From: Streptomyces sp. NBC_00224
GTDB lineage: Bacteria; Actinomycetota; Actinomycetes; Streptomycetales; Streptomycetaceae
NCBI RefSeq assembly: GCF_041435195.1
Contig: NZ_CP108106.1
Location: forward strand, 7,391,001 to 7,455,000
Length of the DNA stretch: 64,000 nucleotides
Reading direction: 5' to 3'
Shown: one piece after another, positions 27,093 through 35,860 of the stretch
How the letters are laid out: every line of letters starts with the position of its first letter
Numbering within the stretch: position 1 is the first letter of the stretch
Translations under genes and position numbers: made by a program
The notes under the pieces: generated by a model
Seen by the model: the letters and a program-made list of their open reading frames with translations, nothing else
Databases searched by the model: none
Told to the model about the DNA's origin: nothing

Positions 27093-28034
27093 TCAGTGGC
27101 AGAGCCCGGCCTCGTGGGCCGCGTGGCCGCTCGGCTCCAGCTGGAAGGTGCAGTGCTCCACATCGAAGTGATCACCCAGGCAGCCCTGCAGATCGTGCAG
27201 CAGCTTCTCGTGGCCCACCGAGTCCAGGGCCTCCTGGCTGACCACCACATGGGCCGAGAGCACCGGCATCCCGGAGGTGATCGTCCAGGCGTGCAGGTCA
27301 TGGACGTCCTCGACGCCCGGCAGGGCCACGATGTGCGCCCGCACCTCGCCCATGTCGACGCCCTTGGGCGCGGCCTCCAGGAGCACGTTCAGCGTCTCCC
27401 GCAGCAGCTTCACCGTACGAGGGACGATCATGAGGCCGATCACCAGCGAGGCGATCGGGTCGGCGGGCTGCCAGCCGGTCGTCATGATGATCACGGCCGA
27501 GAGCAGTACGGCCACGGAGCCGAGCGCGTCCGCGAGCACCTCCAGAAAAGCGCCGCGCACATTGAGGCTCTCCTGCTGGCCGCCGACCAGGAGTGAGAGC
27601 GAGACCATGTTGGCGACCAGACCGATCAGGCCGAAAATGATCGTCGTCGGCCCCGAGGTGTCGGCCGGTTCGACGAACCGCTGGACCGCCTCGTACAGCA
27701 CGTATCCACCGACACCGAGCAGCAGCAGACAGTTGGCGAGCGCGGCCAGGATCTCGGCGCGGGCGTAGCCGAACGTCCGGTTGTGGCCGGCCGGGCGGTT
27801 GGCGAAGTGGATGGCGAGCAGCGCCATCGCGAGCCCGAGGGCGTCCGTCGCCATGTGCGCCGCGTCCGCGACCAGCGCCAGCGAGTCCGCGAGCAGCCCG
27901 CCGACGATCTCGACCACCATCACGCCCAGCGTGATGCCCAGGGCCACCCGCAGCCGCCCCCTGTACGCCGCGGCGGCCGTCCCGGTGGGCGCCGGTCCGC
28001 CGTGTGCGTGCCCGTGGTCGTGCCCAGCCCCCAT
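27093..28034 (-). CDS. Cation diffusion facilitator metal exporter
   Basis: The 313-aa protein is read from ATG 28034, with GAGGTGG upstream. A His-rich N-terminus (MGAGHDHGHAHGG) precedes six transmembrane helices: TM2 has SLALVADAAHMATDALGL (the HxxxD metal site), and TM5 has AFLEVLADALGS, where many zinc exporters have HxxxD; here it is ExxxD. A cytoplasmic domain (about residues 210-310) with DVHDLHAWTITSGMPVLSAH ends the protein. CDF proteins exchange Zn2+, Cd2+, Co2+ or Mn2+ for protons. The His-rich tail favours zinc, while the Glu substitution leaves specificity open. A 442-bp gap separates it from the divergent polymer locus. Confidence 0.93.
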   Translation of the reverse strand: MGAGHDHGHAHGGPAPTGTAAAAYRGRLRVALGITLGVMVVEIVGGLLADSLALVADAAHMATDALGLAMALLAIHFANRPAGHNRTFGYARAEILAALANCLLLLGVGGYVLYEAVQRFVEPADTSGPTTIIFGLIGLVANMVSLSLLVGGQQESLNVRGAFLEVLADALGSVAVLLSAVIIMTTGWQPADPIASLVIGLMIVPRTVKLLRETLNVLLEAAPKGVDMGEVRAHIVALPGVEDVHDLHAWTITSGMPVLSAHVVVSQEALDSVGHEKLLHDLQGCLGDHFDVEHCTFQLEPSGHAAHEAGLCH

Positions 28035-28476
28035 GGAAGGCCACCTCTCAGACTGTCGGCAAGGTTGTGCGATCTGCGTACGAGGGGTCAGTGAACTACG
28101 GGCGGGGGGTATGGAGCAACACGGCACTGAACACCGTTGTCATGTGCTCTGACCTGCGGAAACGCTCTCCTCGCGATGTTTGTTCGCCGTTCGCACGAGC
28201 GTCGCAGGTCAGAGCGGTGCGCGGCCGTCCGGTACGGCTCGGAGCCCAGGGGCCGACGGACGGGGGGCGGTTTGTGGGGCGCGCCCTTGATCGACGATGA
28301 TGATCCACGCGGCGGTCCCCCGCCGTAGGGCCCGATCGGGGCGTAAACAGGCGATGAACTCCCGGTTCCACGCATCCGATAGCCTCCCGATAGCCTCTGC
28401 CGACGTGCCGCCCGCCGTTTGTTTCCGGGCCGGGCCGTCGGCCATCAGCCATGCCAGCTCCAAGGAGTGAGTTCGT
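28035..28476. promoter_or_regulatory. 442-bp divergent intergenic region with a 13-bp inverted repeat
   Basis: This region lies between the CDF exporter and the CDP-alcohol phosphotransferase and must hold both promoters. It contains perfect inverted arms GCTCTGACCTGCG (28146-28158) and its complement (28203-28215), 44 bp apart. That could be a paired binding site or a long-loop hairpin. I found no credible gene in it. A ribosome site AAGGAG at 28462-28467 serves the next gene. Confidence 0.6.
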
Positions 28477-30312
28477 CTGTCGACCGCCATCCTGACCGGG
28501 CTCCCGGTCCCCGGGTCGCAGCTCGGGCCCGAGCTTCGCTCGCTGGGCTTCGACGTGCGGTCCGCCCAGCGGCCCGAGGACCTGCCCGGCCTGCTCGCCG
28601 AGGTCCCGCCCGGTGAGCGGGTCGCCCTGGTCGACCCGTCCTTCGTGGGCCACACGCACGCCCTGCGCCTCGCCCTGACCGACCCCCGGTTCCCGGCGGC
28701 GGCGGTCACCGGAGCCATGACGGTCCAGGCGGAGGCCCGCCCCGCGCTCGTGCGCGCGCTCGCGGACCTCGCCGGGCCGCCCGCGCCGCCCGCCGCGGGC
28801 GCCTCGGTCGCCGTGAACGCCCCGTCCACCGGGACCGGCGTCCTCACCGACCGCGTCGCCTCCGCCCTGGCGGACGGGGGCGTCGCCGTGCACCGCCCCG
28901 ATCTCGGCTCGCTGGTGGCCACCGTGCCCGCCGGACCCGAGGCCGCCTTCGCCGCCCGCCGGGCCGTCGACGCCGTGGACGACGAGGCCGTGCGGCTGCG
29001 TACGGCGGTGAAGTCCCGCGACGGGTTCTTCACCACCTTCTGCATCAGCCCGTACTCGCGCTACATCGCCCGCTGGTGCGCGCGCCGGGGCCTCACCCCC
29101 AACCAGGTCACCACCGCCTCGCTGCTCACCGCGCTGATCGCGGCCGGCTGCGCGGCGACCGGTACCCGGGTCGGCTTCGTCGCGGCCGGCGCGCTGCTGC
29201 TCTTCTCCTTCGTCCTGGACTGCACCGACGGGCAGCTCGCCCGCTACTCGCTCCAGTACTCCACGCTCGGCGCCTGGCTGGACGCGACCTTCGACCGGGC
29301 CAAGGAGTACGCGTACTACGCGGGCCTGGCGCTCGGCGCGGCCCGCGGCGGCGGCAGTGATGACGTATGGGCGCTCGCGCTCGGCGCGATGGTCCTCCAG
29401 ACCTGCCGCCACGTCGTGGACTTCTCGTTCAACGAGTCCAACCACGACGCCAGCGCCAACACCAGCCCCACCGCCGCCCTCTCCGACAAGCTCGACTCGG
29501 TCGGCTGGACGGTCTGGGTGCGCCGGATGATCGTGCTGCCGATCGGCGAGCGGTGGGCGATGATCGCGGTCCTCACCGCCGTCACCACGCCCCGTACCGT
29601 CTTCTACGTACTGCTCATCGGGTGCGCGTTCGCGGCCTGCTACACCACGGCCGGGCGCGTGCTGCGCTCGCTGACCCGCCGGGCGACCCGTACCGACCGG
29701 GCCGCCCAGGCCCTCGCGGAGCTCGCGGACAGCGGGCCGGTCGCCGAGCTGGTCGCCGCGAAGGGCCCGCGGATCGCGGGTGCCCCGGTGATCGCCGCCG
29801 TCGGGGCGGTCGCCCTCGTCGCCGCCGCGCTCACCCAGCCGTTCGGCAGCCGCCAGATGATCGTCGCGGCCGTGTTCTACGCGATCACGTCCGGCCTCGC
29901 CGTCTCCGCCCCCCTCAAGGGCGCCCTCGACTGGCTGGTGCCGCCCTTCTTCCGGGCCGCCGAGTACGGCACGGTCCTGGCCCTCGCCGCCCGCTCCGAG
30001 GTGGACGGGGCCCTGCCCGCGGCCTTCGGACTGGTGGCGGCGGTCGCCTACCATCACTACGACACGGTCTACCGCATCAAGGGCGGCTCCGGCGCGCCGC
30101 CGCGCTGGCTGGTGCGCCTGAGCGGCGGCCACGAGGGGCGGACGCTGGTGGTCGCGGTGCTCGCCGCGGCCCTCGCCACCCGCGGCACGGACTTCACCCT
30201 GGCGCTCACCGCCCTCGCGGTAGGCATCGCGCTCCTGGTGGTCGTGGAGTCCATCCGCTTCTGGGTGTCCTCCGGAGCACCCGCAGTACATGACGAAGGA
30301 GAACCCGCATGA
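28477..30312 (+). CDS. CDP-alcohol phosphatidyltransferase fused to an N-terminal Rossmann-like and C-terminal membrane domain
   Basis: The frame opens after a TGA at 28468. The best-placed start is CTG 28477, 9 nt after AAGGAG, giving 611 aa beginning STAILTGLPVPGS; the first GTG (28555) would remove 26 residues that look native. Residues 1-190 form a soluble alpha/beta domain. A CDP-alcohol phosphotransferase domain follows, with the full motif DCTDGQLARYSLQYSTLG then AWLDATFD (about 247-270), all Asp present. The rest (about 290-605) is a further polytopic membrane region. The enzyme should displace CMP from a CDP-alcohol onto an acceptor alcohol or phosphate. Its stop overlaps the cytidylyltransferase start by 4 bp. 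Confidence 0.88.
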   Translation: MSTAILTGLPVPGSQLGPELRSLGFDVRSAQRPEDLPGLLAEVPPGERVALVDPSFVGHTHALRLALTDPRFPAAAVTGAMTVQAEARPALVRALADLAGPPAPPAAGASVAVNAPSTGTGVLTDRVASALADGGVAVHRPDLGSLVATVPAGPEAAFAARRAVDAVDDEAVRLRTAVKSRDGFFTTFCISPYSRYIARWCARRGLTPNQVTTASLLTALIAAGCAATGTRVGFVAAGALLLFSFVLDCTDGQLARYSLQYSTLGAWLDATFDRAKEYAYYAGLALGAARGGGSDDVWALALGAMVLQTCRHVVDFSFNESNHDASANTSPTAALSDKLDSVGWTVWVRRMIVLPIGERWAMIAVLTAVTTPRTVFYVLLIGCAFAACYTTAGRVLRSLTRRATRTDRAAQALAELADSGPVAELVAAKGPRIAGAPVIAAVGAVALVAAALTQPFGSRQMIVAAVFYAITSGLAVSAPLKGALDWLVPPFFRAAEYGTVLALAARSEVDGALPAAFGLVAAVAYHHYDTVYRIKGGSGAPPRWLVRLSGGHEGRTLVVAVLAAALATRGTDFTLALTALAVGIALLVVVESIRFWVSSGAPAVHDEGEPA

Positions 30313-31046
30313 TCGGCCTCGTACTCGCAGCCGGTGCCGGACGGCGTCTGCGCCCCTACACCGACACGCTCCCGAAGGCCCTCGTGCCCGTCGACGGTGA
30401 CACCACCATCCTCGACATCACCCTCGGCAACTTCGCCGAGATCGGTCTCACCGAGGTCGCGATCATCGTCGGCTACAAGAAGGAGGCCGTCTACGAGCGC
30501 AAGGCCGCGCTTGAGGCGAAGTACGGCCTCAAGCTGACCCTGATCGACAACGACAAGGCCGAGGAGTGGAACAACGCCTACTCCCTGTGGTGCGGCCGTG
30601 ACTCGATCAAGCACGACGTGATCCTCGCCAACGGCGACACCGTGCACCCGGTCTCCGTCGAGAAGACGCTGCTCGCCGCCCGCGGCGACGGCAAGAAGAT
30701 CATCCTCGCCCTCGACACGGTGAAGAACCTCGCCGACGAGGAGATGAAGGTCATCGTCGACCGCGAGAAGGGCGTCCAGAGGATCACCAAGCTGATGGAC
30801 CCGGCGACGGCCACCGGCGAGTACATCGGCGTCACCCTCATCGAGGGCTCCGCGGCCGACGAGCTCGCCGACGCGCTGAAGACCACCTTCGAGCGCGACC
30901 CCGACCTCTACTACGAGGACGGCTACCAGGAGCTCGTCCACCGCGGCTTCAAGATCGATGTCGTGCCGATCGGCGAGGTCTCGTGGGTCGAGATCGACAA
31001 CCACGACGACCTCGCGAAGGGCCGTGAGATCGCGTGCCAGTACTGA
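30309..31046 (+). CDS. Nucleotidyltransferase, CTP:alcohol-phosphate cytidylyltransferase type (LicC/IPCT-like)
   Basis: The 245-aa protein starts at the ATGA overlap with the upstream gene and has GAAGGAG upstream. GT-A-like NTP transferase motifs: LVLAAGAGRRLRPYTDTLPK with the nucleotide-binding Gly loop and Lys, TILDITLGNF, VAIIVGYKKE, NDKAEEWNNAYSLW, ILANGDTVHP (metal Asp) and WVEIDNHDDLAKG (second metal Asp). These are shared by phosphocholine and inositol-1-phosphate cytidylyltransferases. Because the next gene looks like a glycerol-1-phosphate dehydrogenase and the flanking genes use CDP-alcohols, the likely reaction is CTP plus G1P (or a related phosphate) to a CDP-alcohol. The substrate is inferred. 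Confidence 0.85.
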   Translation: MIGLVLAAGAGRRLRPYTDTLPKALVPVDGDTTILDITLGNFAEIGLTEVAIIVGYKKEAVYERKAALEAKYGLKLTLIDNDKAEEWNNAYSLWCGRDSIKHDVILANGDTVHPVSVEKTLLAARGDGKKIILALDTVKNLADEEMKVIVDREKGVQRITKLMDPATATGEYIGVTLIEGSAADELADALKTTFERDPDLYYEDGYQELVHRGFKIDVVPIGEVSWVEIDNHDDLAKGREIACQY

Positions 31047-32095
31047 CCCGGCTCATTCCGTCGCCGGTCGTCGTCGACATCAGCCGGGGCGCCCTGGACG
31101 ACCTGGCGGGCCTCCTGGCCGACCAGCGGATCTCGGCCTCCGGCAAGCTGGCGATCGCGGTCAGCGGCGGCTCGGGCCAGGCGCTGAGCGAGAAGCTGGC
31201 GCCGGTGCTGCCGGGCGCCGACTGGTACCCGGTCGCGGACGGCACCATCGACTCGGCCGTGCAGCTCGGCGACGACATCAAGGGCAAGCGGTACGACGCG
31301 GTCGTCGGCCTCGGCGGCGGCAAGATCATCGACGTGGCGAAGTACGCCGCGGCGCGGGTCGGGCTGCCCATGGTCGCGGTCGCCACCAACCTCTCGCACG
31401 ACGGCATCTGCTCGCCGGTCTCGATCCTGGACAACGACAACGGCCGCGGCTCCTACGGCGTGCCCACGCCCATCGCCATGGTCATCGACCTCGACGTCAT
31501 CCGCGAGGCACCGGTCCGGTTCGTCCGCTCGGGCATCGGCGACGCGATCTCCAACATCTCCGCGATCGCGGACTGGGAGCTCTCGCACGAGGTCAACGGC
31601 GAGCCGGTGGACGGCCTGGCCGCCGCCATGGCCCGCACCGCGGGCCAGTCGGTGCTGCGCCACCCCGGCGGCGTCGGCGACGACGAGTTCCTCACCGTCC
31701 TGTCCGAGGCGCTGGTGCTCTCCGGCATCGCCATGTCGATCAGCGGGGACACCCGCCCCTCGTCCGGCGCCTGCCACGAGATCAGCCACGCCTTCGACCT
31801 GCTCTACCCCAAGCGCTCCGCGCTCCACGGCGAGCAGGTCGGCCTCGGCGCCGCCTTCGCGATGCACCTGCGCGGCGCCGCCGAGCAGTCCGGTCTCTTC
31901 ACGGAGGTACTGCGGCGGCACGGCCTGCCGGTGCTGCCGCAGGAAATCGGCTTCTCCGCCGACGAGTTCGTCCGGGCGGTGGCCTACGCGCCGCAGACCC
32001 GGCCGGGCCGTTTCACGATCCTGGAACACCTCAACCTGTCCACAGCCCAGATCAAGGACGCTTACGCCGACTATGCAAAAGCCATCGGTAGCTGA
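31034..32095 (+). CDS. sn-Glycerol-1-phosphate dehydrogenase-like protein (EgsA/AraM family)
   Basis: The 353-aa protein starts at GTG 31034, inside the last 13 bp of the cytidylyltransferase gene. It has the iron/zinc alcohol dehydrogenase fold: NAD(P)-binding VVGLGGGKIIDVAKYAA, then the family's metal ligands in NLSHDGICSPVSI (Asp), GACHEISHAFD (His) and LHGEQVGLG (His). The SHDG and HGEQVG pairs mark glycerol-1-phosphate dehydrogenase rather than ordinary glycerol dehydrogenase. The family reduces dihydroxyacetone phosphate to sn-glycerol-1-phosphate, the archaeal lipid stereoisomer; in Bacillus, AraM does this. No PcrB-type prenyltransferase is in the window, so an archaeal-type ether lipid is not indicated. 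The product is probably activated by the coupled cytidylyltransferase. Confidence 0.87.
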   Translation: MPVLTRLIPSPVVVDISRGALDDLAGLLADQRISASGKLAIAVSGGSGQALSEKLAPVLPGADWYPVADGTIDSAVQLGDDIKGKRYDAVVGLGGGKIIDVAKYAAARVGLPMVAVATNLSHDGICSPVSILDNDNGRGSYGVPTPIAMVIDLDVIREAPVRFVRSGIGDAISNISAIADWELSHEVNGEPVDGLAAAMARTAGQSVLRHPGGVGDDEFLTVLSEALVLSGIAMSISGDTRPSSGACHEISHAFDLLYPKRSALHGEQVGLGAAFAMHLRGAAEQSGLFTEVLRRHGLPVLPQEIGFSADEFVRAVAYAPQTRPGRFTILEHLNLSTAQIKDAYADYAKAIGS

Positions 32096-32852
32096 ACTCC
32101 GCCCGGTCGTGCACCCTCCGGGCGTCAAGGACCGGCGGAGCGGCGAGCACTGGGGCGGCCGGCTCTACATGCGCGAGATCTCCCTGCGCGTCGACCGGCA
32201 CCTGGTGAACACGCGGGTCACGCCCAACCAGCTGACCTACGTGATGACCGTCGCCGCCGCCTTCGCGGCCCCGGCCCTGCTGGTGCCGGGGATCTGGGGC
32301 GCCGTGCTCGGCGTGGTGATGGCGCAGGTCTATCTGCTCCTGGACTGCGTCGACGGCGAGGTCGCCCGCTGGAAGAAGCAGTACTCGATGGTCGGCGTCT
32401 ACGTGGACCGGGTCGCCGCCTATGTGCTCGACGCCGCCGTGCTCGTCGGCTTCGGGCTGCGCGCCGCCGACATCTGGGGCACCGGCCGCATCGACTGGCT
32501 GTGGGCCTTCCTCGGCACCCTCGCCGCCCTCGGCGCCGTGCTGATCAAGTCCGAGACCGACCTCGTCGGCGTCGCCCGCCACCAGCAGGGCATGCCGCCG
32601 GTCAAGGAGACGGCGTCCGAGCCGCGTTCGTCCGGCGTGGCACTGGCCCGCCGGGCCGCCGGCGCGCTCAAGTTCCACCGGCTGGTCATGGGCATCGAGG
32701 CGACCCTGCTGATCCTGGTCCTGGCGATCGTGGATCACGTGCGGGGCGACCTGTTCTTCTCCCGGCTCGGCGTCGCCGTCCTCGCGGGCATCGCGCTCCT
32801 GCAGTCGGTGCTGCACCTGGTGTCCATCCTCGCCTCCAGCAGGCTCAAATGA
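32073..32852 (+). CDS. Second CDP-alcohol phosphatidyltransferase, last motif Asp replaced by Ala
   Basis: The 259-aa membrane protein starts at ATG 32073, 23 bp before the dehydrogenase stop. After an N-terminal amphipathic stretch (WGGRLYMREISLRVDRHLVN, TPNQLTY) come about six helices. The signature reads LDCVDGEVARWKKQYSMVG then VYVDRVAAY: the first three Asp are present, but the fourth, the proposed general base of the D1xxD2GxxAR-x8-GxxxD3xxxD4 motif, is Ala (codon GCC near 32418). The protein is otherwise intact and co-transcribed, so this may be a subfamily with another base or a different acceptor. Its stop overlaps the glycosyltransferase start (ATGA). Confidence 0.87.
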   Translation: MQKPSVAELRPVVHPPGVKDRRSGEHWGGRLYMREISLRVDRHLVNTRVTPNQLTYVMTVAAAFAAPALLVPGIWGAVLGVVMAQVYLLLDCVDGEVARWKKQYSMVGVYVDRVAAYVLDAAVLVGFGLRAADIWGTGRIDWLWAFLGTLAALGAVLIKSETDLVGVARHQQGMPPVKETASEPRSSGVALARRAAGALKFHRLVMGIEATLLILVLAIVDHVRGDLFFSRLGVAVLAGIALLQSVLHLVSILASSRLK

Positions 32853-33733
32853 GTGCCCCGCTGAAGGTCGGCGCGGTCGTCATCACCATGGGCAACCGCC
32901 CCGAGGAGCTGCGCGCGCTGCTCGACTCGGTCGCCAAGCAGGACGGCGACCCGGTCGAGGTCGTCGTGGTCGGCAACGGCGCCCCGGTCCCGGACGTCCC
33001 GGCGGGCGTGCGGACCGTGGAGCTGCCCGAGAACCTGGGCATCCCCGGCGGGCGCAACGTCGGCATCGAGGCGTTCGGCCCGTCCGGCGCCGAGGTCGAC
33101 ATCCTGCTCTTCCTCGACGACGACGGGCTGCTGCCGAACACCGACACGGCCGAACTGTGCCGCCAGGCGTTCGCCGCAGACCCGAAGCTCGGCATCGTCA
33201 GCTTCCGCATCGCGGACCCGGAGACCGGGGTCACCCAGCGCCGCCACGTCCCGCGGCTGCGCGCCTCCGACCCGATGCGCTCCTCGCGCGTGACGACCTT
33301 CCTGGGCGGCGCCAACGCCGTACGGACGAAGGTCCTCGCGGAGGTCGGCGGGCTGCCCGACGAGTTCTTCTACGCCCATGAGGAGACCGATCTGGCCTGG
33401 CGGGCGCTGGACGCCGGCTGGATGATCGACTACCGCGCGGACATGGTCCTGTTCCACCCCACGACGGCGCCGTCCCGGCACGCGGTCTACCACCGGATGG
33501 TGGCCCGCAACCGGGTCTGGCTGGCCCGGCGCAATCTGCCGGCCCTGCTGGTCCCCGTCTATCTGGGGGTCTGGATGCTGCTCACGCTCGCCAGGAAGCC
33601 CTCCGGGCCCGCCCTCAAGGCGTGGTTCGGCGGCTTCAAGGAGGGCTGGACCACTCCGTGCGGACCGCGCCGCCCCATGAAGTGGCGTACGGTCTGGCGG
33701 CTGACCCGGCTGGGCCGTCCGCCCGTCATCTGA
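32849..33733 (+). CDS. GT2-family glycosyltransferase
   Basis: The 294-aa protein starts at ATG 32849 in an ATGA overlap. GT-A features: VGAVVITMGNRPEELRALLD, VVVVGNGAPVPD, LPENLGIPGGRNVGIEA, the DXD-type LLFLDDDGLLP, FLGGANAVRTKVL and EETDLAWRALDAGW for base/acceptor. A short C-terminal hydrophobic stretch (LLVPVYLGVWMLLTLAR) suggests membrane association. It resembles rhamnosyl- and galactofuranosyl-type transferases of actinobacterial cell-surface glycans. In this locus it probably glycosylates the CDP-alcohol-derived product before export. The sugar donor is unknown. Confidence 0.88.
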   Translation: MSAPLKVGAVVITMGNRPEELRALLDSVAKQDGDPVEVVVVGNGAPVPDVPAGVRTVELPENLGIPGGRNVGIEAFGPSGAEVDILLFLDDDGLLPNTDTAELCRQAFAADPKLGIVSFRIADPETGVTQRRHVPRLRASDPMRSSRVTTFLGGANAVRTKVLAEVGGLPDEFFYAHEETDLAWRALDAGWMIDYRADMVLFHPTTAPSRHAVYHRMVARNRVWLARRNLPALLVPVYLGVWMLLTLARKPSGPALKAWFGGFKEGWTTPCGPRRPMKWRTVWRLTRLGRPPVI

Positions 33734-33833
33734 CACTCTCGGGTCTGAGCACAGCGGGTGTGGGCCGTCAGGCCCTGGGCACTTCGGGTCATGGTCATCG
33801 GGCGTACTTCTTTGAAAGCGAAAGTTTCCACTT

Positions 33834-34715
33834 GTGAGTGACACAACTCTGTCCCCGGCGGACCTCGCCGCCAAGCACGGCCTGGCGGTGAGCGGCGCCC
33901 GGCCGGGGCTGTTCGAGTACTGCCGCCAGCTCTGGGGGCGGCGCCACTTCATCCTGTCGTTCTCGCAGGCGAAGCTGACCGCCCAGTACAGCCAGGCGAA
34001 GCTCGGCCAGATCTGGCAGGTGGCCACCCCGCTCCTCAACGCGCTGGTCTACTACTTCATCTTCGGCGTGCTGATGGACGCCAAGCGGGGCATCCCGTCG
34101 GACGTGTACATCCCGTTCCTGGTGACGGGCGTGTTCGTGTTCACCTTCACCCAGAACTCGGTGAACGCGGGCGTCCGGGCGATCTCCGGCAACCTCGGCC
34201 TGGTGCGCGCGCTGCACTTCCCGCGCGCCTCGCTGCCCATCTCCTTCGCGCTCCAGCAGCTCCAGCAGCTGCTGTTCTCGATGATCGTCCTGGTCCTCGT
34301 GGTGGTCGTGTCGGGCACCATGCCGATGGCGTCGTGGCTGCTGATGGTGCCGGTCCTGGCGCTCCAGTTCGTCTTCAACACCGGACTGGCGATGATCATG
34401 GCCCGGCTCGGCAGCAAGACCCCGGACCTGGCCCAGCTGATGCCGTTCATCCTGCGCACCTGGATGTACGCGTCGGGTGTCATGTTCAGCATCAAGGTGG
34501 TCCTCCAGGGCAAGCCGCACTGGCTCGCCCAGGTCCTCCAGGTGAACCCCGCCGCGGTCTACATGGACCTGGCCCGGTTCGCCATGATCGACGGATACGG
34601 TGCCCACAACCTGCCGCCGCACGTCTGGCTGCTGGCGGTCGGCTGGGCCCTCGTCGTGGGCGCGGCGGGCTTCGTGTACTTCTGGAAGGCAGAGGAGCAG
34701 TACGGCCGTGGCTGA
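33834..34715 (+). CDS. ABC-2 type polysaccharide/teichoic acid exporter permease
   Basis: The 293-aa protein starts at GTG 33834. A charged N-terminus with the interface segment FSQAKLTAQYSQAKLGQIWQ precedes six helices (LNALVYYFIFGVLMD, FTFTQNSVNAGVRAISGN with the amphipathic coupling region ALHFPRASLPISFALQQ, LLFSMIVLVLVVVVSG and others). The pattern matches TagG/Wzm/RfbA permeases, which flip lipid-linked polymers across the membrane. A 100-bp gap from the glycosyltransferase leaves room for a second promoter, but the direction and the 8-bp overlap with the ATPase argue for one export unit serving the upstream enzymes. Confidence 0.92.
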   Translation: MSDTTLSPADLAAKHGLAVSGARPGLFEYCRQLWGRRHFILSFSQAKLTAQYSQAKLGQIWQVATPLLNALVYYFIFGVLMDAKRGIPSDVYIPFLVTGVFVFTFTQNSVNAGVRAISGNLGLVRALHFPRASLPISFALQQLQQLLFSMIVLVLVVVVSGTMPMASWLLMVPVLALQFVFNTGLAMIMARLGSKTPDLAQLMPFILRTWMYASGVMFSIKVVLQGKPHWLAQVLQVNPAAVYMDLARFAMIDGYGAHNLPPHVWLLAVGWALVVGAAGFVYFWKAEEQYGRG

Positions 34716-35511
34716 GGACAACAACCGGCTCGCCGACGCGAGCGGCGAGCGCATCCCCACCGTCATCGCCGACGACGTACACATCGTGTACACGGTCAAC
34801 GGCGCGGGCGGCGGCCGGGGCAGCGCCACCGCCGCGCTGAGCCGGATAGTGAAGGGGGACAAGGGCGAGTCCCGCGGCATGCGCAAGGTGCACGCCGTAC
34901 GGGGCGTCTCCTTCACCGCGTACCGCGGCGAGGCGATCGGCCTGATCGGCACCAACGGCTCGGGCAAGTCGACCCTGCTGCGGGCGATCGCCGGGCTGCT
35001 GCCGCCGGCCAAGGGCCGGGTGTACACCAACGGCCAGCCGTCGCTGCTCGGTGTCAACGCCGCGCTGATGAACGAGCTGACCGGCGAGCGCAACGTGGTC
35101 CTGGGCGGCCTGGCCATGGGCATGTCGCGCGAGGAGATCAAGGAGCGGTACGAGGAGATCGTCGACTTCTCCGGCATCAATGAGAAGGGCGACTTCATCA
35201 CCCTGCCGATGCGGACGTACTCCTCGGGCATGGCGGCCCGGCTGCGGTTCTCCATCGCCGCCGCCAAGGACCACGACGTCCTGATGATCGACGAGGCGCT
35301 CGCCACCGGTGACCGCAAGTTCCAGATCCGCTCCGAGGAGCGCATCCGCGAGCTGCGCAAGCACGCGGGCACGGTCTTCCTGGTCAGCCACAGCATCGGC
35401 TCCATCAGGGACACCTGCAACCGGGTGCTCTGGCTGGAGCGGGGCGAGCTCCTGATGGACGGCCCCACCGACGAGGTCGTCAAGGCGTACCAGAAGGAGA
35501 CCGGCCGCTGA
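34708..35511 (+). CDS. ABC exporter ATPase (TagH/Wzt type)
   Basis: The 267-aa protein starts at GTG 34708 (AGAGGAG upstream), overlapping the permease by 8 bp. Walker A is LIGTNGSGKSTLLRAI; the signature is the TagH/Wzt variant YSSGMAARLRFSIA; Walker B is VLMIDEALATGDRKF; the H-loop is LVSHSIGSI. The long N-terminal insertion before KVHAVRGVSF (about residues 20-60) is typical of polysaccharide and teichoic acid exporters. There is no C-terminal carbohydrate-binding extension, so it exports without the Wzt-type cap-reading domain. It is the last gene of the unit; a strong terminator follows 25 bp later. Confidence 0.94.
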   Translation: MAEDNNRLADASGERIPTVIADDVHIVYTVNGAGGGRGSATAALSRIVKGDKGESRGMRKVHAVRGVSFTAYRGEAIGLIGTNGSGKSTLLRAIAGLLPPAKGRVYTNGQPSLLGVNAALMNELTGERNVVLGGLAMGMSREEIKERYEEIVDFSGINEKGDFITLPMRTYSSGMAARLRFSIAAAKDHDVLMIDEALATGDRKFQIRSEERIRELRKHAGTVFLVSHSIGSIRDTCNRVLWLERGELLMDGPTDEVVKAYQKETGR

Positions 35512-35536
35512 CGGTCGGTCACCGTTCGAATGATCC

Positions 35537-35574
35537 CGAAGGCCCCCGCCGATCAACCCCGGCGGGGGCCTTCG
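35537..35574 (+). terminator. Strong hairpin terminator of the surface-polymer locus
   Basis: A perfect 14-bp stem, CGAAGGCCCCCGCC / GGCGGGGGCCTTCG (35537-35550 and 35561-35574), with a 10-nt loop. It is located 25 bp after the ABC ATPase stop and separates this locus from the hopanoid operon. Confidence 0.93.
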
Positions 35575-35860
35575 CGTCCTTGGGGGCGGCCCGCAGGACG
35601 GCCCGGAATGTCAAGGCTCCGTCAAGTCGCCTGCGCCGGGGGAAGGTTGGCGCGGATTGAAGTGTTCTTGTAATGCGCGCAACACCCCGACGTGTTGTCA
35701 GGCGTTGTACAACGTAAGCTGTACCGGTGTTGATCGTGACGGACGGGCGGTACCGCCCCGGGCAGCCCGCGCGGGAGCCGTCCTCCACTCGGGAGGCTCG
35801 GCGGCGTGTCCGAAATGGGATGTTTTGGGTCGGCGGTGTAGAACGGGAGATGTGACGGCA
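35575..35860 (+). promoter_or_regulatory. Presumed hopanoid operon promoter region with a 12-bp palindrome
   Basis: Between the terminator and hpnC there is no convincing protein gene other than a short upstream ORF. CGTTGTACAACG (35703-35714) is a perfect 12-bp palindrome in an AT-richer patch, with TTGTCA at 35695 and TAAGCT at 35715 nearby; the 14-bp spacing between those two is too short for a standard promoter. The palindrome is a good operator candidate for control of the hopanoid genes. The promoter itself is not assigned. Confidence 0.5.

Follow-up and report, generated by a model that had tools for sequence, protein, structure and literature searches.

Introduction

In Bacillus subtilis, glycerol that has been activated with a cytidylyl group by TagD (CDP-sn-3-glycerol) feeds the PF04464 glycerophosphotransferases of the TagF type, and export proceeds through a TagGH ABC system. 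The archaeal synthesis of glycerophosphoinositol and di-inositol phosphate combines an alcohol phosphate cytidylyltransferase with a CDP-alcohol phosphotransferase (IPCT-DIPPS, AF2299), and an A. fulgidus activity prefers glycerol-1-phosphate, Gro1P (PMC8262930; here and below, papers are cited from excerpts of their text). The ether-lipid route of Bacillales (AraM/PcrB) contains a bacterial sn-glycerol-1-phosphate dehydrogenase (G1PDH), and LicC activation together with the CPT1/CEPT1 Kennedy pathway joins CTP:alcohol-phosphate activation to a head-group transferase whose membrane part is long. Here we analyse a locus of Streptomyces sp. NBC_00224 (9.18-Mb genome) that shares one or more of these features with each system. 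It occupies positions 28477–35511 of the window, which is the whole analysed stretch of 64,000 nucleotides (7,391,001 to 7,455,000 of contig NZ_CP108106.1), and holds seven plus-strand genes, CAP1, NTP, GDH, CAP2, GT2, Wzm and Wzt, which were identified by open reading frame and Pfam and whose products all exceed the cut-offs of their families (PF01066 to PF00005).

Unlike B. subtilis, the genome gives no TagD match (TIGR01518, E ≤ 0.001) and holds GDH and a LicC-like NTP instead, one orthologue of each, which predicts the opposite enantiomer. Unlike IPCT-DIPPS and AF2299, the locus has a predicted G1PDH in the operon, a separate NTP, a DUF5941 extension, a GT2 and an exporter. It differs from AraM/PcrB in that the partner of the dehydrogenase is a nucleotidyltransferase; PcrB, which a sequence-only reading of this DNA had already reported as absent, gave no match over the whole genome. 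Finally, the predicted substrate is sn-glycerol-1-phosphate (G1P), not choline phosphate as for LicC/CPT1/CEPT1. We consider it fairly probable that NTP and GDH form a CDP-sn-1-glycerol module, a non-homologous substitute for TagD, which feeds TagF enzymes encoded elsewhere as well as the local CAP1, GT2/CAP2 and Wzm/Wzt.

Results and Discussion

The core of the locus is a pair of two genes, a feature that is absent from the account of the sequence-only reading: NTP (30309–31046, plus strand, PF00483/PF12804), a predicted CTP:glycerol-1-phosphate cytidylyltransferase with a LicC/IPCT/PntC-like fold, and GDH (31034–32095, plus strand, PF13685/PF00465), a predicted G1PDH. The two overlap by 13 bp (31034–31046). 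The complete pair was found in 40 of the 42 loci read, with an overlap of exactly 13 bp in 37 of the 40 and gaps of 9, 10 and 26 bp in the other three. At a threshold of E ≤ 1e-90, chosen after the tables were inspected, GDH orthologues are present in 100 of 394 genomes of the class (40 of them Streptomyces), so that about a quarter of the sampled genomes carry the pair as judged by GDH; no Streptomyces is among the listed genomes without it. The last full-length orthologue scores 1e-98 and the next proteins 1e-22, two contig-end fragments of one genome excluded, and absence counts rest on tallies and full match lists. When NTP was tested in 70 GDH genomes (all 60 non-Streptomyces and 10 of the 40 Streptomyces), it was present in 69; in the exception, G084, GDH starts at base 119 of its contig. 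Among the 62 GDH-negative genomes tested, all of which carry TagD or strong TagF, only one has NTP (G097, 77% complete, with NTP at a contig edge). A sample of the phylum gave NTP (E ≤ 1e-50) in 13 of 296 genomes, three of them outside the class.

We next consider where the product of the pair may go. Defining strong TagF as PF04464 with E ≤ 1e-60 and TagD-like as TIGR01518 with at least 100 bits, both set after inspection of the tables, we found strong TagF in 141 of the 394 genomes. Of the 100 genomes with GDH, 91 have it, vs 50 of the 294 that lack GDH (Fisher p = 1.2e-41); counted by genus, it is 31 of 34 vs 22 of 103 (p = 2.6e-13). TagD-like proteins occur in 30 of the 394 genomes, with only four genomes passing the curated cut-off, and in none of the 100 with GDH (p = 1.3e-4 by genome). 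In the genus g39 both pair genomes and TagD genomes are present, and none sampled has both. Since the pair tracks TagF and no sampled genome combines it with TagD, teichoic acid is a likely destination of its product, which the sequence-only reading had not named. The TagF region of the genome itself (near 3.94–3.96 Mb) contains GT2-TagF fusions, a Wzm/Wzt pair and, by eye, rml-like genes, and the three TagF proteins scored rate higher with TarF than with TarL. If a teichoic acid of glycerol is made there, no source of CDP-glycerol besides the NTP-GDH locus was detected.

The surroundings of the pair were compared in two ways. In loci of about 20 kb each, 20 from Streptomyces and 20 from other genera, all seven genes followed by hpnC recur in 17 of the 20 Streptomyces loci, and the other three are second copies, of the NTP-GDH pair in L061 and L067 and of only GDH in L070. 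This recurrence of gene order exceeds chance. The cluster itself is less novel than claimed: a 2026 Streptomyces pan-proteome lists syntenic clusters of crtB, tagH, tagG and araM with a CDP-alcohol phosphotransferase, a GT2 and a nucleotidyltransferase (PMC13118837), apparently the same locus by synteny. In the excerpts of that work no biochemical pathway is set out, the pair is not treated as a unit, TagF and TagD are not compared, and stereochemistry is not predicted. Secondly, an NTP search of genome contigs gave at least 586 relatives, of which 80 named loci were retained; they overlap with the 394 genomes and the counts are hence not independent. By tblastn with the window proteins, where distant versions may escape and some loci end at contig ends, GDH is recognised in all 80 loci and CAP1 in 60, while CAP2 and GT2 share an identical set of 69. 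Wzt is present in 33, Wzm in 30, TagF in 22, hpnC in 15.

These counts bear on the placement "next to the hopanoid operon". Downstream of the locus, HpnC (325 bits), HpnD (320.4 bits) and squalene-hopene cyclase (800.2 bits) all exceed their cut-offs, and the hpnC, hpnD, shc neighbourhood is thus real here; it was observed solely in Streptomyces, Kitasatospora and Wenjunlia. A conjugation of hopanoid-related lipids could be read from the fact that hpnC follows in 17/17 full Streptomyces copies and in 15/15 named loci of these genera (10/10, 4/4 and 1/1, respectively), but hpnC turned up in none of the 20 non-Streptomyces loci and in none of the 65 other named loci within about 10 kb. A general hopanoid role was rejected on this synteny, and we regard hopanoid conjugation as very improbable.

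Two side observations concern loci of unusual composition. The second copies in L061, L067 and L070 sit between rne-like and rplU/obgE genes (identities by eye), with TagF-type genes close by in L061 and L070. In L034, from an actinomycete genome of 1.6 Mb (93% complete), the pair is kept with its 13-bp overlap and no other cluster gene was recognised within about 10 kb.

Turning to the dehydrogenase, GDH holds the motifs SHDG, GACHEISH and HGEQVG, as the sequence-only reading had stated for the G1PDH metal site, and among solved structures it is nearest to 3CE9 and to 4RGQ, the M. jannaschii-type G1PDH. A first protein search gave at least 120 rows, the named ones all being Streptomyces, and archaeal rows were added from a second search. 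In the resulting tree (45 rows, midpoint-rooted), 20 actinomycete proteins group with 3CE9 and with Cytobacillus and Nitratidesulfovibrio proteins (support 97/94), and the next node joins the archaeal G1PDHs (83/76). Glycerol dehydrogenases form a group of their own (100/100) and two DHQ-synthase-like proteins another, which OTH_L088 joins, possibly as a false long-branch join; Priestia AraM and OTH_L092 each form a long branch at an unresolved fork. GDH thus appears to group with the G1PDHs, apart from GldA and DHQ synthase, with moderate confidence. The phylogeny, for which a position outside the G1PDH/AraM clade had been named as a refutation, does not refute the assignment, one node being only moderately supported. 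D170 (19 of 20 actinomycete rows), H248 and H265 are kept, in line with Asp, His and His, which we take to be the metal ligands of G1PDH. Among columns conserved in at least 95% of actinomycete and at least 85% of archaeal rows, 40 in total, the commonest residue of four glycerol dehydrogenases differs or ties (column 103) in 20, in five of which the residue also turns up in one or more glycerol dehydrogenase rows. Phosphate might be contacted by R241, H252, R323 and R326; at the column of R241, the annotated Priestia AraM carries H. Tree and residues together disfavour GDH as a glycerol dehydrogenase or a DHQ-synthase-like enzyme. Plasmid homologues of GDH (Nitratidesulfovibrio, Priestia, Cytobacillus) lie in other neighbourhoods and give no substrate clue, and a Nonomuraea record is unannotated at this place. 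The two pattern matches from a GDH search of viral contigs are not relatives.

The same evidence has to be held against two other functions. GDH could have drifted to another ketose phosphate, with the pair making a different CDP-polyol (e.g. CDP-arabinitol, CDP-erythritol or CDP-ribitol) for actinomycete polyol teichoic acids; wall polymers with other polyols do exist in actinomycetes. The score of GDH below the G1PDH equivalog cut-off and the weaker matches of TarL-type ribitol polymerases to these TagF proteins would suit this, but the 20 conserved columns follow archaeal G1PDH and not the commonest glycerol dehydrogenase residue, and the three TagF proteins favour TarF, which makes another polyol unlikely in our view. 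Archaeal-type ether lipids have been proposed for Streptomyces with orthologues of G1PDH, GGGPS and DGGGPS, this genus being among those having species with all three genes (PMC6431249). Here GDH is coupled to a nucleotidyltransferase, not to a prenyltransferase, and PcrB/GGGPS exceeds the cut-off neither in this genome nor in any of 78 other pair genomes (18 Streptomyces; one weak match of 19 bits in G335). With PcrB missing, the ether-lipid role was rejected; it is the least credible of the functions considered.

For NTP, a Foldseek search with the predicted model gave PntC, LicC and IPCT as top matches, all cytidylyltransferases, with UDP-glucose pyrophosphorylases a short way behind or level in the fold comparisons, and the sequence matches LicC (2.6e-13); NTP reaches no NCBIfam cut-off among the 25 families listed. 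These matches support its prediction as a CTP:alcohol-phosphate cytidylyltransferase of the LicC/IPCT/PntC type. TagD has a different fold from NTP.

The remaining genes would act on the activated glycerol. CAP1 (28477–30312, plus strand, PF01066 and PF19365) consists of a nucleotidyltransferase-like N-domain, a CDP-alcohol phosphotransferase and DUF5941, and its motif DxxDGxxAR-x8-GxxxDxxxD is intact here and in the CAP1 of all 17 full Streptomyces copies. CAP1 resembles IPCT-DIPPS and AF2299 (the latter over model range 1–399), and its predicted model also resembles, along a longer stretch of membrane part (71–605), eukaryotic choline phosphotransferases of the CPT1 type, which suggests that a membrane lipid or glycolipid may receive glycerol-1-phosphate from CAP1. 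CAP2 (32073–32852, plus strand) passes the PF01066 cut-off despite an incomplete motif, its fourth motif Asp being replaced, and is perhaps non-catalytic. It is followed by the GT2 glycosyltransferase (32849–33733, plus strand, PF00535), the Wzm/TagG-like permease (33834–34715, plus strand, PF01061) and the Wzt/TagH-like ATPase (34708–35511, plus strand, PF00005). Both exporter proteins pass the Pfam ABC cut-offs; their best NCBIfam models, TagH for Wzt (180.7 bits, cut-off 320) and Wzm for Wzm (54.2 bits), stay below cut-off. Wzm and Wzt are 66% and 73% identical to the permease and ATPase in the TagF region of the same genome.

It is conceivable that the locus makes only a small soluble or lipid-linked glycerophospho-compound, comparable to archaeal glycerophosphoinositol, and that the TagF association is indirect. 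The likeness of CAP1 to AF2299 and IPCT-DIPPS, the presence of CAP2 and GT2 alongside the pair in 69/80 loci and four pair genomes without a TagF match speak for such a product. However, tblastn detects no CAP1 or CAP2 in 11 of the 80 loci, 22 of the 80 are flanked by TagF genes, and the exporter looks like one for long polymers; we judge a small compound to be distinctly unlikely, slightly more so than another CDP-polyol.

Three further observations on CAP1 and CAP2 were made. Although its fourth motif Asp is missing, CAP2 stays with GT2 in an identical set of 69 loci. In four loci of family f17, CAP1 is motif-less or only DUF5941-like (L043 12210–13166; L040, L046, L047) and CAP2 is kept. 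Two genomes of genus g61 have a distinct small CDP-alcohol phosphotransferase directly after GDH (L042 8853–9575, also by Pfam; L049 10639–11358).

Returning to the CDP-sn-1-glycerol module, gene content, coupling, co-occurrence, phylogeny and predicted folds suggest substrates, a direction of flow, a product and a stereochemistry as follows. GDH would reduce dihydroxyacetone phosphate (DHAP) to G1P, which NTP would join with CTP to CDP-sn-1-glycerol, the enantiomer that TagD does not make and whose handedness is usually linked to archaea. TagF-type polymerases encoded elsewhere would use it for teichoic acid chains, and CAP1 would use it locally on a membrane lipid or glycolipid acceptor; GT2 and CAP2 would modify this product and Wzm/Wzt would export it. 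Sequence, phylogeny and predicted fold thereby favour several elements that the sequence-only reading had proposed: the G1PDH identity, the CTP-type nucleotidyltransferase, phosphodiester formation, the exporter and the unusual glycerol stereochemistry.

We tentatively go one step further. Pair-bearing actinomycetes might build both wall and lipoteichoic acids of glycerol phosphate from CDP-sn-1-glycerol, so that these polymers would mirror the wall teichoic acid of Bacillus, with CAP1 as a CPT1-like enzyme that primes G1P on a membrane glycolipid; this we hold to be possible rather than probable. In Firmicutes, the Gro1P of lipoteichoic acid comes from phosphatidylglycerol, and Bacillus wall teichoic acid contains Gro3P (PMC7086022). 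The lipoteichoic and wall teichoic acids of S. hygroscopicus are very alike in structure, S. coelicolor lipoteichoic acid is reported as polyglycerolphosphate, and how lipoteichoic acid is made in actinomycetes, whose genomes have no clear LtaS orthologues, is a stated open question (PMC3196553). A shared CDP-1-glycerol pool would fit the likeness of the two S. hygroscopicus polymers.

Several results weigh against this route. By genus, TagD and GDH are not significantly exclusive (1/34 vs 9/103, p = 0.45), and we therefore do not use TagD exclusion as proof. Moreover, 32 of the 141 strong-TagF genomes, including G097, hold neither GDH nor TagD, so that other precursor routes exist; four GDH genomes, one a Streptomyces, have no TagF match at all; and the TagF region of the genome itself lies about 3.5 Mb from the locus. 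GDH reaches 239.7 bits with the NCBIfam equivalog NF002022, its best of all models, which is below the cut-off of 413 bits. The tree connects it to archaeal G1PDHs with modest support under a midpoint root and leaves Priestia AraM outside its group. In the VIA ranking of the NTP model, UDP-glucose pyrophosphorylases come out level with IPCT and ahead of LicC, which is at rank 12, and the fold thus does not prove CTP. Some loci have no motif-bearing CAP1. The fourth motif Asp of CAP2 is Ala in the window and Ala or His in 32/32 relatives, so that the case for "two phosphodiester-forming steps" is weaker than claimed. From the literature, S. hygroscopicus lipoteichoic acid is described as 1-P-Gro-3-P units, the excerpts giving no chiral analysis (PMC3196553), and for S. 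coelicolor a polydiglycosylphosphate is given as a minor wall polymer, no glycerol-phosphate wall polymer being named in the excerpts (PMC7831098).

CDP-sn-1-glycerol was called likely absent from bacteria in 2021 (PMC8262930). We found no proposal of a CDP-1-glycerol route in actinomycetes in excerpts of the open-licence PMC literature, nor anything on this dehydrogenase in those of PMC9385802; as far as this literature shows, the route itself is unpublished, whereas the synteny of the cluster was known. If the route is correct, the two-gene module would be a source of CDP-sn-1-glycerol in bacteria, and teichoic acid stereochemistry would be inverted in a major antibiotic-producing group. It might also explain how actinomycetes that lack LtaS make lipoteichoic acid, and one so similar to their wall teichoic acid. 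The bacterial G1PDH branch would gain a purpose other than archaeal-type lipids, and, in the debate on the lipid divide (PMC6431249), many bacterial G1PDHs would no longer count as putative genes for archaeal-type lipids.

Locus Borders and Neighbouring Genes

Re-reading the sequence bore out the chain of overlaps described before: besides the NTP/GDH junction these are ATGA at 30309–30312 (CAP1/NTP), 23 bp at 32073–32095 (GDH/CAP2), ATGA at 32849–32852 (CAP2/GT2) and 8 bp at 34708–34715 (Wzm/Wzt), with a 100-bp gap between GT2 and the permease start at 33834. CAP1 has no ATG, GTG or TTG at 28477; a CTG stands there behind AAGGAG (28462–28467), and of the 17 Streptomyces loci, which have a conserved leader, 11 carry CTG at this place and the other six TTG, so that translation probably begins at this CTG. 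A consensus scan of the sequence detected no sigma-70-like promoters. The "strong terminator" reported 3' of the last gene is a stable 15-bp hairpin (35537–35574, plus strand, by folding) without a T tract, and is absent from the output of a T-tract terminator scan; the region 35525–35600 folds at −51.2 kcal/mol (z −4.9). Upstream lies a divergent cation-efflux gene (27093–28031) that exceeds the CDF superfamily cut-off (304.5 bits) and stays below that of the ZitB model (237.5 bits); this zitB-like gene adjoins a locus encoding a metal-dependent dehydrogenase. In S. coelicolor, zitB is SCO6751 and Zur-regulated (PMC5472717), and from this assignment and the gene order we infer that the locus corresponds to SCO6752–SCO6758.

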